From NCBI GenBank assembly GCA_030550235.1, contig JAUQPU010000001.1:159458-223457 (forward strand): a stretch of DNA of 64,000 nt. The letters run 5' to 3'. Positions 3,501 to 52,666 of this stretch are shown piece after piece; within the stretch, counting starts at the first letter, position 1; each line of letters begins with the position of its first letter. Origin of the DNA: Thermoproteota archaeon (GTDB taxonomy: Archaea > Thermoproteota > Nitrososphaeria_A > Caldarchaeales > Calditenuaceae). The notes below the pieces were generated by a model. It was not told the DNA's origin. It saw nothing but the letters and a program-made list of their open reading frames with translations, and searched no databases. Position numbers and translations under genes: made by a program.

Positions 3501-3521
3501 ACCTAGCATGGAGACGGTGCT

Positions 3522-3527
3522 GGGTGG
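3522..3527 (+). promoter_or_regulatory. Shine-Dalgarno GGGTGG for CTG-started nep1
   Basis: GGGTGG ends exactly 6 nt before CTG 3534 and matches the GGTGA/GGTGG part of the archaeal SD consensus. The same motif stands 6 nt before the TTG of sdhA and 7 nt before the proposed CTG of nadM. It decides the nep1 start. Confidence 0.6.
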
Positions 3528-3533
3528 AAGAGC

Positions 3534-4244
3534 CTGACCCAACAGCGATACCTTATTCTCCTAGCAGATGCGGCTGTCGAGCTTATCCCGAGGGAGATCT
3601 GGAGCCACAACGCTGTGGTATCCTACTGTAGGAGGAGGGGGAAGAGTCCTGAGAGAACCCTCCTAGACTCGTCCTATCATTACACGGCCATGAGGGGGCT
3701 CCCAAACAGTGAGAGGAGAGGTAGACCGGACATCCTCCACTTCACAATCCTCGAGGTCCTGGGCTCGCCACTCAACAAGGCGGGGAAACTGGCCACATTC
3801 ATACATACCCAGGCCGGAGTCGTCATTGAGGTCAATCCCAAAGTCAGGCTCCCTCGAAACTATGACAGGTTCAAGAGCCTCTTCGAGAAGCTCCTCGTTG
3901 AGAAGATAATCAAAGCTGATACAGGGGAGATTCTGCTCCGGGTTCTGGAGACAGATCTCTCCGGCTGGAGGCGTATGATGGGGGCTGGAAGCTTTGTCCT
4001 CCTTTCGGAGACCGGGGCCAAGCTGGAGAGGAGGGTGCTGGAGGAGTTTTCGCTGAGTGAGCGGCCCGTCGCCTTCATTCTCGGCTGCTTTCCCCACGGA
4101 GACTTCTCCCAAGAGGTAAGGAGGATGGCTGACATGGAGGTCAGGCTCTCAGACTATACACTCGATGCATGGGTGGCGGCCTCTAGAATTATCTGCCTCT
4201 TGGAGTCTTTCGAGCTCTCTAAAACGCATATAGATAGACACTAG
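3534..4244 (+). CDS. nep1: rRNA small-subunit pseudouridine methyltransferase Nep1, CTG start
   Basis: Nep1/Emg1 is a SPOUT methyltransferase that N1-methylates a pseudouridine in 16S rRNA and assists small-subunit assembly. Hallmarks are LLDSSYHYTAM, RRGRPDILHFTILEVL, LNKAGKLATFIHT and RLPRNYDRF, plus the GCFPHGDF knot loop near the C-terminus. The first canonical start in frame (GTG 3615) would delete the first beta strand. The frame upstream still reads RYLILLADAAVELIPREIW, which matches the N-terminus of known archaeal Nep1. Between the in-frame TAG at 3504 and 3615 there is no ATG, GTG or TTG. CTG 3534 lies 6 nt after GGGTGG and gives 236 residues, a normal length. A sequencing error in the start codon remains possible. 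Confidence 0.85.
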   Translation: MTQQRYLILLADAAVELIPREIWSHNAVVSYCRRRGKSPERTLLDSSYHYTAMRGLPNSERRGRPDILHFTILEVLGSPLNKAGKLATFIHTQAGVVIEVNPKVRLPRNYDRFKSLFEKLLVEKIIKADTGEILLRVLETDLSGWRRMMGAGSFVLLSETGAKLERRVLEEFSLSERPVAFILGCFPHGDFSQEVRRMADMEVRLSDYTLDAWVAASRIICLLESFELSKTHIDRH

Positions 4245-35682: not shown

Positions 35683-37359
35683 TTAAGTCATTGTTGATAC
35701 TCTCTCCCTTCTCTGCATTATCTCCTGCTCGCTTACTTTTCTGAATAGTGGTTTTGGTTTTGTGATTTTTGTGTTAGGCTGGAGTAGGGTGTCCTCGAGT
35801 CGTCCCCAGCTGCCATTCTTATCATAGCCTAAACCAATCATCTCTCTCAGGGCGGCTGCTGTGTCTGGTGTGAAGATCTCTAGGAACACTGTTAGGGCTG
35901 CAACTATTTGTGAGGCTACGAAGAGTGTCGTAGCTGCCCTCTTAGGGTCTGTCTTCAGCAGCTTCCAGGGCTCCTTTAGGTTCAGGTAGCTGTTTGCTTC
36001 CTTGACTAGGTTGAGCACCTCGATCAGCGACTGCCTCTCTCGCACCTCATCCATCAGCTCATCGATTCTATGCTTAATCTCCCTTATCCTCATGAGGATC
36101 CTCTCATCATCGGCGTCCAGCGCATGGTGTTCAGGGACTTTTCCCTCGAAGTTTTGGTGTATGAATGTCAGGACCCTGTGGATATAGTTTCCTATGTCGT
36201 CGTTAAGGTCGCTATTCACCGTTGAGACAAAATCCTGCCACCTGAAGTTTGTATCACTGGTCTCTGGCCGGTTCTTGGCGAGATAATATCTCCAGTAGTC
36301 GCTGGGTAGGATTGCTAGCGCCTCGTCAAGCCAGACTCCTATTTTCTTGCTCTTGGAGAATTTCTGGCCTTCGAATGTTAAGTATTCTGTTGCAGAGACG
36401 TTCCATGGAAGTACATAGCCCTCGCCGTGTGCCAGTAGTAGTGCTGGGAGGATGATTGTGTGGAATGGTATATTATCCTTACCTATGAAGTAGACTGTTC
36501 TGGTTTGTTTGTCGAGCCAGTATTTCTCCCATAGGCTTGGCTCCCCCCTCGATATTCCGAGCTCCACAGTCGCTGAGATGTAGCCCAGAACCGCCTCGAA
36601 CCAGACGTAGATTGTTTTCTCCTCCGCGCCTGGGAATGGTGCTGGGATTCCCCACTTGTTATCGCGTGTTACGGCCCTAGGTCTAAGCCCCTCTTCTATC
36701 CAACTGAGGCTGAAAGCCTTGACACGCTCTGACAGGCTCGGGTTTGAGACGAGCCACTCCTTCAGTTTTTGTGAGAGTTGGGGCAGGTCAAGGAACCAGT
36801 GTCTTGTGGATCTGATTATCGGCGTTGACCCGCATATTGCGCATATGGGGTTAACCAGCTCTAGCGGGTCTAGGACTCTTCCACAGGCCTCGCACTGGTC
36901 CCCCCTCGCATAGCTATATCCGCAGTATGGGCATGTCCCATGGACAAATCTGTCGGGCAGGAATCTACGACAGTTGTCGCAGTAGAGCTGGTCCATTTCG
37001 CGGTCTATTATGTATCCGTTCTCGTAGATTCGTTTGAAGAAGTTCTGGCAGAAGGATATATGAATGGGGTTGTGGGTCCTGGTATAGTTGTCGAAAGAGA
37101 GACCAAAATTCTTGAAGATCTCGACAACCTTGGCGTGGAACTTGTCTGTCAGGGTCTTCGGCTCCACCCCCCGTTTCGCTGCCTCAACCTCTATGGGCGT
37201 GCCATGCTCGTCGGAGCCGCTTACGAAGACTACATCCTCACCCCTTACCCTTAGGTAGCGTGCATAGATATCAGCGGAGAGCTCGGAGCCGATCAGGTTG
37301 CCAATGTGCGGTATCCCGTGGATGTAAGGCCATGCTCCCCCGACAATCCACCTACCGAG
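35683..37359 (-). CDS. metG: methionyl-tRNA synthetase (start codon non-canonical or frame-disrupted)
   Basis: A class Ia synthetase of about 558 residues. The frame upstream of the first canonical start (GTG 37167) reads RWIVGGAWPYIHGIPHIGNL, containing the HIGH motif, then VVFVSGSDEHGTPIEVEAAK. It continues with four CXXC zinc knuckles (CDNC, CPYC, CEAC, CAIC), WFEAVLGYISA and KFSKSKKIG (KMSKS loop). Between the in-frame TGA at 37366-37368 and the HIGH motif no ATG, GTG or TTG occurs. A CTC at 37359 lies 6 nt after GGTGA. ATG 37372, well placed behind a TTTAATAA box, is one frame off. So the start is CTC/ATT, or an indel or frameshift is present. Confidence 0.8.
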   Translation of the reverse strand, partial: LGRWIVGGAWPYIHGIPHIGNLIGSELSADIYARYLRVRGEDVVFVSGSDEHGTPIEVEAAKRGVEPKTLTDKFHAKVVEIFKNFGLSFDNYTRTHNPIHISFCQNFFKRIYENGYIIDREMDQLYCDNCRRFLPDRFVHGTCPYCGYSYARGDQCEACGRVLDPLELVNPICAICGSTPIIRSTRHWFLDLPQLSQKLKEWLVSNPSLSERVKAFSLSWIEEGLRPRAVTRDNKWGIPAPFPGAEEKTIYVWFEAVLGYISATVELGISRGEPSLWEKYWLDKQTRTVYFIGKDNIPFHTIILPALLLAHGEGYVLPWNVSATEYLTFEGQKFSKSKKIGVWLDEALAILPSDYWRYYLAKNRPETSDTNFRWQDFVSTVNSDLNDDIGNYIHRVLTFIHQNFEGKVPEHHALDADDERILMRIREIKHRIDELMDEVRERQSLIEVLNLVKEANSYLNLKEPWKLLKTDPKRAATTLFVASQIVAALTVFLEIFTPDTAAALREMIGLGYDKNGSWGRLEDTLLQPNTKITKPKPLFRKVSEQEIMQRRERVSTMT

Positions 37360-37364
37360 CTCTA

Positions 37365-37370
37365 CTCACC
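37365..37370 (-). promoter_or_regulatory. Shine-Dalgarno-like GGTGAG upstream of metG
   Basis: The minus strand reads GGTGA, then 6 nt, then CTC GGT AGG TGG ATT, the codons just before the conserved WIVGGAWPY. The spacing equals that of the CTG-started genes. A TTTAATAA box lies about 25 nt further upstream. Confidence 0.35.
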
Positions 37371-44016: not shown

Positions 44017-44484
44017 ATGTTGAAAAAAGTGGATGAAATTGACCTCAAGCTCTTAAACATACTCAGTTACAATGGCCGCGCCTCCTACAGGGAGCTGGCG
44101 AAGACGCTCGGGGTCTCCGTAGCCACTGTGGCTTATAGAGTTTCGAGGCTTCAGAGGCAGGGAGTGATCAAGGGGTTCACCGCAATGATCGATTATGAGA
44201 GATTCGGATACGACATAACCGCGGTTATAGAGCTTGTGATTAGAGAGGGGAGGCTGCTCGAGGTTCAGAAGGAGCTGGCGAAGGAGCCTAATGTCTTTGC
44301 AGTCTATGACGTGACGGGAGAGGTGGACTCCATACTTATCGCTAGGTTCAGGGACAGGCAGGAGCTTAGCCAATTTGTGAAGAAGGTGCTCCGCATGCCC
44401 TATGTCGAGAGGACATCAACGCACATAGTATTGGAGGTTGTGAAGGAGGACTTCTTCTCACCCCAGCTTGTTCAGAGCGTTTAG
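44017..44484 (+). CDS. Lrp/AsnC family transcription regulator
   Basis: About 155 residues. The N-terminal winged helix is IDLKLLNILSYNGRASYREL followed by GVSVATVAYRVSRLQRQGVI, and the C-terminal RAM ligand domain spans residues about 65-145 (ITAVIELVIREG ... SILIARFRDRQEL). It is convergent with, and overlaps by 4 nt, the glutamate synthase operon, a neighbour that fits amino-acid sensing. The ligand is unknown. Confidence 0.9.
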   Translation: MLKKVDEIDLKLLNILSYNGRASYRELAKTLGVSVATVAYRVSRLQRQGVIKGFTAMIDYERFGYDITAVIELVIREGRLLEVQKELAKEPNVFAVYDVTGEVDSILIARFRDRQELSQFVKKVLRMPYVERTSTHIVLEVVKEDFFSPQLVQSV

Positions 44485-46559
44485 CCCTCCTCAGGCTCCT
44501 CAACCCTGGGTCTGTGCCCAGACTTCGGATAAATCACCGTGAAGTACTCTTCCGCAATAACCCTGTCAACCTCCTCCTTCAGCTTGAAGACTCTGCCAAA
44601 CTCTTCGAAATGGTTCTGGAGAAGTGCGAGGTCATCTTCTCCTATTCTCCGGTGCTCCACGACAAGCTCTTTCCAGTACTTGTTCACGTATAGCTTTGAG
44701 ACAAGCTTGACAACATTTTCAGGTAGCATTTTACTGAGCGTGACGAGTGAGAAGTCTTTGAGAGATGCCACTTTCTTGTAATCATCCTCGGATAGCCTGC
44801 CCTCAAGAAGCAACCCTCTAAGATATTGGATTACATCTGCTCTTGGTGGGTTGAGGCCTATCTTGCTCGGGCTGACCATGCCTCTAACGTATATCTTGCC
44901 GCCGACCATCCCGCTTGCGACGCAGTTTCCAACAACCTCCACATCCGTTTCAAGATAGTTCAGGCCGAGGACAACAATCACCCCGCCAGCCATATACTCC
45001 CCAAGATAATCGTCCACCCTTCCACCAATCATCAAAACAGGCCGCTGGTCCCGATACTCTCTCATCTGGATCCCACACCTGTTGCCTGCGTTGCCTTTGA
45101 TGTATATTGCCCCGCCTTGGAATGCTTGGGCAAGAACGTCTCGCGCATCGCCGTGGACAACTATACGGCCACCAGTCATGACATCGCCCACATCGTCTTG
45201 GACATTTCCGAAGACCTCTATATCGAGGCTCGTATTCAGGTTTGCCAGACAGTTACCAGGTGTCCCAAAAACTCTGAGCTTTAAAGGCTGGTCTAATCCT
45301 ACGCCAATATATCTCTGGCCTCTGACGTTGATGATGTCTATCTGTTTAGCCCCTAACCTCGCCTTCTCCAATATGGCCTGATTAAGCATCCGGTAGTTCA
45401 TGTGTGCGGCGTCTATGCATTCCCCTGAGATTGTTGGAGGCTTTAGAGGGCTGGACAGACTGTAGAATCTCTCAGGCATCCTCCTGCCAGGATAAATCAC
45501 TCCTTCTCTCAGAGATGCGAGGAAATAGTCACCTGGCTCAATAGTCCAGACTCTCGCATCTTGGCTGATTGTTCTGATCTGGGCCTCCTCACTCGCTGCA
45601 TAGATATAGTCCTCATCCTCGCCCACGACTATTGGTCTGAACTTGAACCTGTCCGCGAAAGCCACCATATAGGCATCATGGCCATCGGAGAAGCCCGCAA
45701 TGACGCTGAAGGGACCATCTAGTCTAGCCCCACGCCACCTATAGAACTGCTTGACTGTTTCAGGGTCAGGCAACTCTTTGTTAAACTTGTTACAAAGAAT
45801 CTTTGCAGCCTCCTGGACGTTAAAGTGTTGGAAACTGGTGAGATAGTCTAGAAGGTGAGCGATTACCTCGCTATCTGTCCCAACGAAGCTCGTGTAGCCC
45901 AGCGACCAGAGAAGCTCCATGTTTGAGCCGAAGGAGCTTATGTCGCCGTTGTGGACTATGGCCCATTCACCGCTGGCGAAGGGGTGAGACCATATAGGAA
46001 GTCTACCGGGAGAGTTAGTAGGCTGCCTAGTATGGGCAATCCACATATCACCGTATAGCTCCCTACCCCCCATATGGTAAATATTGTAGACATCCAATGG
46101 ATAGCCGACGCCTTTGTATACATCGACGAACCTGCCCCAAGAGTAGATTCTCGCACGGAAATCATCTCTCCAGAATTCCCCATTGATATCCCTGACGGCT
46201 CGCCAGAGAGCTCCATAATCGGCCTTAACAATCATGGTGTAGGATGTTAGTGATCCATTCTGCGGGGTGTATTCTGGGACGGGCATGGATAGGATCCTAC
46301 CATGCATTCTCTCCTTGAGCATGCTGTATACACGCATAGCCTCCTCCTCCGAAGTTGCAAACACCTTCACCCTATGTCCCGTGTCCAAATCTAGCTTGAT
46401 CCGTGCGAAACCTGCTCCCATCCTACTACCCCTGTATCTGACACACTCTATGGCGTTGAGGGCGATACTACTGGGTATTGGTTTTGATTGGCCCTTTCTC
46501 AGGATACCGAAGATTCCGCAGCCCGACTTGACTTGGGTGATGTGGTGGCTATTCTCCAG
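44481..46559 (-). CDS. glutamate synthase: class II amidotransferase + GXGXG domain, CTG start
   Basis: A 692-residue protein fusing the glutamine amidotransferase domain of GltB (1-400) with its C-terminal GXGXG beta-helix domain (GGRIVVHGDARDVLAQAFQGG; GGKIYVRGMV). The nucleophile is Cys14 in VKSGCGIFGIL; HTRQPTNSPG and VHNGDISSFGSN are substrate-binding. The first canonical start (ATG 46421) lies after this cysteine and cannot be right. Upstream, back to an in-frame TGA, there is no ATG, GTG or TTG, but CTG 46559 lies 6 nt after GGGGTGA. A 13-residue propeptide would be cleaved before the Cys. It overlaps the preceding gene by 11 nt. Confidence 0.85.
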   Translation of the reverse strand: MENSHHITQVKSGCGIFGILRKGQSKPIPSSIALNAIECVRYRGSRMGAGFARIKLDLDTGHRVKVFATSEEEAMRVYSMLKERMHGRILSMPVPEYTPQNGSLTSYTMIVKADYGALWRAVRDINGEFWRDDFRARIYSWGRFVDVYKGVGYPLDVYNIYHMGGRELYGDMWIAHTRQPTNSPGRLPIWSHPFASGEWAIVHNGDISSFGSNMELLWSLGYTSFVGTDSEVIAHLLDYLTSFQHFNVQEAAKILCNKFNKELPDPETVKQFYRWRGARLDGPFSVIAGFSDGHDAYMVAFADRFKFRPIVVGEDEDYIYAASEEAQIRTISQDARVWTIEPGDYFLASLREGVIYPGRRMPERFYSLSSPLKPPTISGECIDAAHMNYRMLNQAILEKARLGAKQIDIINVRGQRYIGVGLDQPLKLRVFGTPGNCLANLNTSLDIEVFGNVQDDVGDVMTGGRIVVHGDARDVLAQAFQGGAIYIKGNAGNRCGIQMREYRDQRPVLMIGGRVDDYLGEYMAGGVIVVLGLNYLETDVEVVGNCVASGMVGGKIYVRGMVSPSKIGLNPPRADVIQYLRGLLLEGRLSEDDYKKVASLKDFSLVTLSKMLPENVVKLVSKLYVNKYWKELVVEHRRIGEDDLALLQNHFEEFGRVFKLKEEVDRVIAEEYFTVIYPKSGHRPRVEEPEEG

Positions 46560-49974: not shown

Positions 49975-50523
49975 CTGAGCCGCACAACTGTAAGGCGGGG
50001 ATTATTGATAGGTAGGTTTCAGCCCTTCCACATAGGCCACCTATCAGCCATCAGAGAGATCCTCAGCGGGTTTGATGAGGCCATAATAGCTATAGGGAGC
50101 AGCCAGTTCAGCCACACCTTCGATAACCCATTCACGGCAGGTGAGAGGATAGAGATGATTAGGCTAGCTCTGAGGGAGGATGGCCAAGACCTCTCAAGAA
50201 TCATCACAGTATCTATACCTGATATTGGAGAGCATAGGCTCTGGGTTGCGAGGTTAACATCGATGTGTCCGAGATTTGAGGTGGCCTATACGAATAACCC
50301 CTTCGTCAAACTCCTGCTTGAAGAGCAGGGGATAAAGACTAGGGAGGCTGAACTCTATAACAGGGAGGTTTTTAACGCTACGAGGATTAGAACTCTGATG
50401 GCCGAGGGTGGGAATTGGAAAAAACTAGTCCCCAAGAGTGTCGGCGACTATATCGAGGAGATAGGAGGTGTGGAGAGGGTTAGAATCGCCAAAGGGTCCG
50501 CAACCAGCACACTCCTCAGGTGA
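49975..50523 (+). CDS. nadM: nicotinamide-nucleotide adenylyltransferase, CTG start
   Basis: A 182-residue archaeal NMN adenylyltransferase that forms NAD from NMN and ATP. Motifs: GRFQPFHIGHL (nucleotidyl-transfer HxGH), GSSQFSHTFDNPFTAGERIEM, YTNNPFVKLL and the ISSTRIR-equivalent NATRIRTLM. The first canonical start, TTG 50005, would begin inside the first strand. The frame upstream reads VRRGLL directly before IGRFQPFH, the same as the MRGLLVGR-type start of known NadM. The only plausible start there is CTG 49975 behind GGTGG. Coupled with the zinc-finger gene 6 nt downstream. Confidence 0.87.
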   Translation: MSRTTVRRGLLIGRFQPFHIGHLSAIREILSGFDEAIIAIGSSQFSHTFDNPFTAGERIEMIRLALREDGQDLSRIITVSIPDIGEHRLWVARLTSMCPRFEVAYTNNPFVKLLLEEQGIKTREAELYNREVFNATRIRTLMAEGGNWKKLVPKSVGDYIEEIGGVERVRIAKGSATSTLLR

Positions 50524-50956: not shown

Positions 50957-52666
50957 TTGGAGAAGATCACTTGTGACGTGGTTGTGATGGGCTCGGGTTT
51001 AGCTGGCCTCAGGGCCGCTATAGAGGCTGCGAGGACGGGACGCGGAAAAATCTCCGTCGCTGTCGTCACCAAAACCCAGCCTATGAGGTCTCATAGCGTC
51101 TCGGCTGAAGGAGGAACAGCCGCGGTCCTCTACCCAGAGGAAGGGGACTCCCTGGAGTCGCACATGTGGGATACAGTGAAGGGAAGCGACTTCCTCTCCG
51201 ATCAGGACGTGGTGGAGAGGTTTGTGAAACTTGCGCCACAGGAGATTATTCAGCTAGAGCACTGGGGTATGCCCTGGGCAAGGAGGAAGGATGGGAAAAT
51301 AGCCCAAAGATCCTTCGGTGGACAGAGTTATCCGCGGGCGTGTTATGCTGAAGACAAGGTTGGGTTCTATGAAATGAGCACCCTATACGATACGTGTCTA
51401 AAATTTGATGAGATAATGTTTTATGATGAGTGGTTCGTCACAAAAATTCTCAAGAATAAGGGGCGCTTCGCCGGTGTTGTGGCTATGAGCCTCAAGAACA
51501 GCGAGCTCGCTGTCTTTAACGCGAAGGCCGGCATCCTAGCGACGGGGGGAGCAGGCAGAATCTATAGTTTCGCAACATTTGGACATAGCTCAACACCCGA
51601 CGGATATGCAGTAGCTCTACGCGCAGGTGTTCCCTTGAGGGATATGGAGTTCGTCCAGTTCCATCCGACAGGTCTTGTACCTAGCGGGATACTAATCACC
51701 GAAGCCGCGCGCGGCGAGGGTGGGATACTTAGAAACAAAAACGGGGAGAGGTTCATGGAGAAGTATGCACCAAAGGCTAAGGATCTCGCACCAAGGGACA
51801 TAGTCTCTAGGTCTATGATAACAGAGATGCGTGAGGGGAGAGGCTTCAAGACTGAGGAGGGTGAGGACTATCTACTCCTTGACCTCACAGCCATAGACCC
51901 TGAAGTCATCAAGAAGAGACTTACAAGCATCCGCGAAATATGTCTACGAAACGCCGGAATCGACCCTATAAACGAGCCTATACCAGTAAGACCTGTGGCC
52001 CACTATTATATGGGTGGTGTTGACGCAAACATTGACGGTGCGACTGAGCTTCCAGGCCTTTGGGCTGCCGGTGAGGTTGCATGCACCTCGATGAACGGCG
52101 CGAACAGACTGGGCTCAAACTCTACAACCGAGTGTCTTGTCTGGGGCAGAATAACGGGAGAAATGGCCGCGAGGTTCGCTATGTCGAATCAAGCCGTAGA
52201 GCCGGCTAAAAGCGACATAGAAGAGGAGGAGAAGCGAATATATGACAAACTCCTCGGCCCTGCTCCTCGAGCTAACCCGTACAACATCAAAAAGGAGATT
52301 CAGACGTTGATGGAGAGGCACTTCCACATCTACAGGGAGGCTGGCAGCATGGAGGAGGGGTTGAGGATGCTGCGGGTCTTAAGGCAGCAGGCTGAGCTGG
52401 GTGTGGAGGATAAGAGCAGATACTATAACACTAATCTGATGAATGTGCTTGAGATAGACGGTATGTTTGATGTCTGCGAGGTGATAGGTGTCGCTGCGCT
52501 TCATAGGCAGGAGAGCAGGGGAGCTCATGCGAGGGTTGATTATCCTAAAAGAGATGACGAGAACTGGCTCCACCACATCTTAGTCTATAAGACCGCAGAT
52601 GGGCTTGAGTTTGCATACAAACCAGTAGTCGTGACTAAATATAAGCCGGCGGAGCGGACATACTAG
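50957..52666 (+). CDS. sdhA: succinate dehydrogenase/fumarate reductase flavoprotein subunit
   Basis: A 569-residue FAD subunit. Dinucleotide motif [18 protein letters not shown] (8-25), the histidine for covalent FAD in [11 protein letters not shown], substrate residues in [23 protein letters not shown], and [16 protein letters not shown] with the second FAD loop [16 protein letters not shown]. Start TTG 50957 has GGTGG 6 nt upstream, which gives a reference for this genome's SD spacing. SdhB, C and D are not adjacent. Direction (succinate oxidation or fumarate reduction) cannot be told. Confidence 0.92.

Follow-up and report, generated by a model that had tools for sequence, protein, structure and literature searches.

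The start codons that a review names for archaea are AUG, GUG and UUG (PMC7531240). CUG is a rare newcomer to prokaryotic starts more generally, with only 4 switches to it counted among ~69,000 ancestral starts by Belinky et al. 2017 (PMC5622118). Weak start codons that are nevertheless kept across species have been described in Staphylococcus, where cvfC1, ccpN and infC have conserved AUU/AUA starts accompanied by an extended Shine-Dalgarno (SD) element; by experiment, these starts lower the yield (PMC13009471).

The locus described here is the ribosome-assembly gene nep1, encoding the EMG1/Nep1 SPOUT methyltransferase, in a genome (G000) from a hot-spring genus of the archaeal family Calditenuaceae. 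It lies in the window, by which we mean the whole 64,000-nt stretch of DNA that was analysed, within contig 8 of a 1.43 Mb draft assembly of 15 contigs. Among named records, other Calditenuaceae archaea and Archaeon HR02 stand closest to it. For comparison we used five congeneric species (G001-G005) and, outside the genus, 35 genomes of the Caldarchaeales, the order formerly called Aigarchaeota. The comparison points strongly to a nep1 start at CTG 3534, and to CUG as a genuine minor start codon in this genus (at least ~1% of genes), which would be driven by the SD element, with ordinary initiator tRNA and some translational coupling.

The nep1 start region

The relevant features of the window are these:

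3504..3506, + strand: in-frame TAG, the upstream bound of the nep1 start
3522..3527, + strand: Shine-Dalgarno element GGGTGG, 6 nt before the CTG
3534..3536, + strand: proposed nep1 CTG start codon, with a homologous CTG in G000, G002, G004 and G005
3534..4244, + strand: nep1 coding sequence from the proposed CTG, with a full-length Pfam EMG1 match
3615..3617, + strand: GTG, the first canonical in-frame nep1 start, rejected for loss of the conserved first strand

After TAG 3504 the nep1 frame reads CAT GGA GAC GGT GCT GGG TGG AAG AGC CTG(3534) ACC CAA CAG CGA TAC ... GTG(3615). This agrees with a preliminary description of the locus, according to which no in-frame ATG, GTG or TTG occurs between TAG 3504 and GTG 3615 and CTG 3534 lies 6 nt 3' of GGGTGG; the latter spacing is exact. 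The element is complementary to the 16S rRNA 3' end, which is GGATCACCTCCT, and stands at normal spacing (GGGTGG-N6). A gap of 33 nt separates nep1 from the upstream gene, with no overlap.

The same description had the conserved N-terminal strand of Nep1 encoded upstream of GTG 3615, and we do find it there (LADAAVELIPREIW), with a counterpart in the nep1 of relatives. Translated from the CTG, the protein has a full-length EMG1 domain well above the gathering score, matching positions 1-197 of the PF03587 (EMG1) profile with 193.6 bits (cut-off 28.2), where translation from the GTG gives 17-197 and 180.4 bits; the CTG start adds the first 16 profile positions. In alignments with archaeal Nep1 the CTG-started protein matches up to its N-terminus: residues 4 and 6 fall opposite residue 5 of the solved Nep1 9jgb and residue 3 of the NEP1-like 3bbd, respectively, so that the CTG falls within a few residues of Met1 of the homologues.

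A possible objection is that nep1 simply starts at GTG 3615, the first codon accepted by a table 11 ORF listing (ATG/GTG/TTG), and that the codons upstream are untranslated. We regard this as very improbable, because those codons encode the conserved strand, which is present in relatives and aligned to the start of solved Nep1, and because a first-NTG reading applied elsewhere would strip GltB of its SGCGIFG cysteine and MetRS of its HIG motif. For the proposed CUG starts, no canonical start is compatible with the conserved protein. That standard gene callers miss CTG starts and truncate the proteins had also been proposed; the truncation is apparent in the ATG/GTG/TTG ORF listing, and it is by that listing alone that the proposal is borne out.

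nep1 in related genomes

The homologous nep1 codon is CTG in four of the six species of the genus (G000, G002, G004 and G005), each of which has its own in-frame stop 18-30 nt 5' of the CTG. The codons flanking it differ among the four, giving LTQQRY, LATPKY, LVTPRY and LDSPRY. The nep1 of G005 has a weak SD only, which counts against the SD-driven model. The start in G003 is ambiguous, with two candidates: a CTG one codon before the homologous position and a GTG five codons beyond it. In G001 (L095) the conserved strand is preceded by TAG ATA CCG CCC GTC, containing neither NTG nor CTG; the start in that species is possibly AUA.

Five species of the genus (G000, G001, G002, G004 and G005) lack any NTG from the stop to the conserved core of nep1. 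In other genera a canonical start is found near that position (24 of the 35 matches, and several named records, were read). The contrast of 5/6 in the genus with 0/35 in other genera (Fisher p = 8e-6) is indicative only: the test counts all 35 as canonical, of which 24 were read at the DNA level, and is uncorrected for relatedness.

These comparisons bear on two further explanations. The first is an assembly or sequencing error hiding an ATG, GTG or TTG at 3534, a concern natural enough with a draft source sequence. However, the identical nep1 CTG recurs in the genomes of four species, which were assembled separately and differ in the flanking sequence, and the CTG of gltB and of o5093 (below) in six, so we give an error hardly any credence. 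The second is that translation begins at an out-of-frame canonical start, ATG 3508 (METVLGGRA-stop), and reaches nep1 by a frameshift, or else that an upstream exon carrying an ATG is spliced on. ATG 3508 is indeed present, the TGA of its small ORF overlaps the nep1 CTG, and the genus appears to splice at least the cbf5 mRNA. But the CTGA overlap has no counterpart at the nep1 of G002, G004 and G005, which have CTGG, and an SD 6 nt before the CTG would serve no purpose with a start supplied by an upstream exon; we consider this explanation very unlikely, and retain initiation at the CTG.

Other genes with proposed CTG starts

Three more genes of the window had been likened to nep1:

44481..46559, - strand: GltB-like glutamate synthase protein (GATase II + GXGXG), CTG at 46559-46557 behind GGGGTGA-N6, CTG in 6/6 congeners
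49975..50523, + strand: nadM (NMN adenylyltransferase; Pfam CTP_transf_like), CTG at 49975 behind AGGTGG-N7
50957..52666, + strand: sdhA, TTG start at 50957 behind GGTGG-N6, with CTG at that codon in the G005 orthologue

The sdhA TTG was said to share the nep1 spacing, and it does. The glutamate synthase gene and nadM were said to be arranged alike; this is right for the former (GGGGTGA-N6-CTG), whereas nadM agrees in kind and not in spacing, which is 7 nt rather than 6. In gltB an in-frame TGA lies two codons 5' of the CTG, and in G000 the first NTG, 46 codons on from the CTG, is already past the SGCGIFG cysteine. The nadM CTG-AGC and the upstream AGGTGGATT are kept in G005.

We checked five starts (gltB, o5093, rpoL, metG and cofD) in six genomes, all of this genus (G000-G005). 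GGGGTGA-N6-CTG is present at gltB in 6/6 species, as is GAGTGA or GGGTGA-N6-CTG at o5093, and GGTGG-N6-CTG is found at rpoL in 5/6, the sixth having ATG. Residue 1 of RpoL, when counted from the CTG, aligns with Met1 of the solved Rpo11 (LEVKVI/MEIKVI).

Between G000 and G005, CTG is shared at nep1, the gltB-like gene, rpoL, rpoH, o5093 and nadM. It is exchanged with TTG at five genes, with the CTG in G005 at sdhA, the spt4-like gene, o3926 and o3858 and in G000 at o2931. A less certain case is o3996, where CTG is exchanged with ATG.

Proposed starts other than NTG

35683..37359, - strand: metG (methionyl-tRNA synthetase), proposed CTC start at 37359-37357 behind GGTGA-N6, CTC in 6/6 congeners

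The preliminary description overlooked metG, which also lies in the window. In none of the six congeners does metG have an ATG, GTG, TTG or CTG start (region 35683-37365), and the first NTG lies 39-80 codons after the upstream stop. The one candidate shared by all (6/6) is GGTGA-N6-CTC, with variation in the two codons that precede the CTC; a gap of 43 nt, with no overlap, separates metG from the upstream gene. Residue 3 of MetRS, counted from the CTC, aligns with residue 3 of the P. abyssi MetRS 1rqg, which places the CTC opposite Met1. metG appears, from these alignments, to initiate at CTC in 6/6 species. This apparent CUC start is a more unusual point than the CUG starts, and we know of no report of an essential gene that naturally starts at CUC.

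The cofD gene (G000:C8 403041 onward, + strand, outside the window) likewise lacks an NTG start in all six of the species. It has GGGGTGA-N6-ATC in five of them and ATT in the remaining one, with an ATA following. The CofD alignment leaves a margin of one or two residues, within which the start may be either the ATC/ATT or the next ATA; the ATA overlaps the upstream TAA as ATAA, a geometry like that of ATGA.

We lean towards the view that start choice in the genus is relaxed beyond NUG, with CUC at metG (6/6), AUC/AUU or AUA at cofD and AUA at the nep1 of one species, and that the SD rather than the codon defines the start. The same genes bear on another explanation, C-to-U RNA editing that would turn CUG into UUG before translation. 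The exchange of CTG and TTG between species at the same start is in keeping with such editing, but the metG CTC and cofD ATC/ATT/ATA starts would be left unexplained by it, and we judge it most improbable. To our knowledge, C-to-U mRNA editing has not been found in archaea.

Several other genes were noted in passing. A trpE-like gene (idx 2142; G000:C8 6985 onward, + strand, outside the window) has no NTG over at least 48 conserved codons in G000 and G005. An aRF1-like gene (idx 4042; G000:C8 356852, - strand, outside the window) has ATG in G005, and a 2-nt difference in G000 leaves an ATA in frame; G000 either starts this gene at ATA or has a 2-nt error in its assembly there. ORF idx 5254 was dropped as a start case, looking like a frame shift instead. 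Also dropped was an ACG start for cbf5 in G005, where an mRNA intron is the probable explanation. In cbf5 (G000:C8 ~265800, - strand, outside the window; also G005) the frame changes at GGTLD/P, and deleting 17-19 nt restores GTLDPAVSG, which looks like a short cbf5 mRNA intron. Such an intron was found only in Desulfurococcales and Sulfolobales in a 2009 survey (PMC2738675).

Genome-wide survey

For a census of starts, 1,107 orthologous G000 ORFs were set against 1.2 Mb of G005. To count as a case, a codon had to stand behind an SD motif, with NTG absent both upstream and in the next 5 codons, and the partner had to carry the same codon or NTG. A first list, built on conserved sequence 5' of canonical starts, consisted mostly of promoters, rRNA and antisense ORFs; codon potential and change at third positions served as filters. 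Among ~1,000 orthologue pairs, CTG accounted for 6 genes of G000 and for 8 of G005, and any other codon for no more than 2; CTG is the only codon repeatedly found behind an SD in genes without an NTG start. The hits of other codons were mostly neighbouring codons of those CTG genes. Of the CTG genes, idx 5020 is less secure and has an NTG six codons further along.

The preliminary description had called for such a count and suggested that CUG initiation may be routine in the lineage. CTG is indeed enriched, and CUG starts at nep1 and further genes are supported by comparison, Met1 alignment, SD enrichment and CTG/TTG switches, although as a minor class rather than a routine one; the figure of ~1% of genes is a lower bound, since cases with a nearby fallback NTG are invisible to the census. 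No gene without an NTG was found among 102 in other genera, a sample with little power against a ~1% rate.

A strong SD accompanies 13 of 16 CTG starts compared with 124 of 566 canonical starts (22%; p = 1.2e-6), a test in which some genes enter with both of their orthologues, and which takes in the motif GAGTGA, present in one of these genes. The preferred position of literal GGTG at canonical starts (283 unambiguous orthologous ones) is 7 nt before the start, equivalent to GGTGR-N6, with 22 cases against 11 for the next spacing. TTG is common, at 72 of these 283 conserved starts.

In the checked genes, only 5 of 131 invariant leucine columns use one codon throughout the six species, which makes three identical leucine-type codons at three fully conserved starts unlikely by chance (~6e-5). 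This figure needs discounting at overlapping starts, because there the upstream gene also constrains the bases. Overlaps with the upstream gene occur at gltB (-11), rpoL (-16), o5093 (-4), o2931 (-4) and cofD (-7), and part of the CTG conservation at gltB, o5093 and rpoL may come from this source; the nadM and rpoH starts have no such overlap. The start has a close 5' limit in gltB, o5093, metG and cofD, because the TGA within the SD doubles as an in-frame stop, two codons before the start codon.

Proposed mechanism

We infer that ribosomes initiate at the CTG with methionine as first residue, SD strength and coupling offsetting the weak codon. A strong SD (GGTGA or GGTGG, usually 6 nt upstream) would place the 30S subunit, and the ordinary initiator tRNA (anticodon CAU) would be accepted despite a mismatch to the first base of the codon; the first residue is assumed to be methionine. 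Where the start overlaps the end of an upstream gene (e.g. CTGA, a -4 overlap), terminating ribosomes could re-initiate. No altered machinery, in the form of a non-CAU initiator tRNA or a missing or deviant aIF1, was found on examining the initiator tRNA and aIF1: the tRNA is standard (CAU anticodon, A1-U72 and three G-C pairs), and aIF1, the proofreading factor of start selection (PMC6237735), occurs in each of the six congeners and is ordinary in those aligned.

Comparison with known systems

If these starts are real, start annotation in this lineage is wrong for essential genes (RNA polymerase H and L, MetRS, glutamate synthase and Nep1), and the mis-annotated proteins lose their first 10-70 residues, in some cases with catalytic residues. 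The genus would then offer a natural archaeal system, with a eukaryotic-type initiation apparatus, for learning how far a strong SD replaces codon-anticodon pairing, and for asking whether weak starts set the expression of core genes. A literature search, beyond whose reach most subscription papers lay, returned no report of CUG starts for this lineage.

The archaeal GUG and UUG starts behind an SD (PMC7531240) are alike in the SD-placed 30S subunit, the CAU initiator tRNA and the near-cognate codon; CUG is not among the starts of that review, whereas here it is proposed for many genes across a genus. The rare CUG and AUU switches (PMC5622118) likewise have canonical starts swapped for CUG between close relatives, while our data contain at least 3 clean TTG/CTG pairs among 413 aligned starts, in species that are more distant. 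The Staphylococcus starts (PMC13009471) resemble ours in a weak start codon kept across species together with an extended SD. Those starts are bacterial, AUU/AUA, limited to a handful of genes and established by experiment; ours are archaeal, mostly CUG, with core transcription and translation genes among them, and proposed from sequence comparison.
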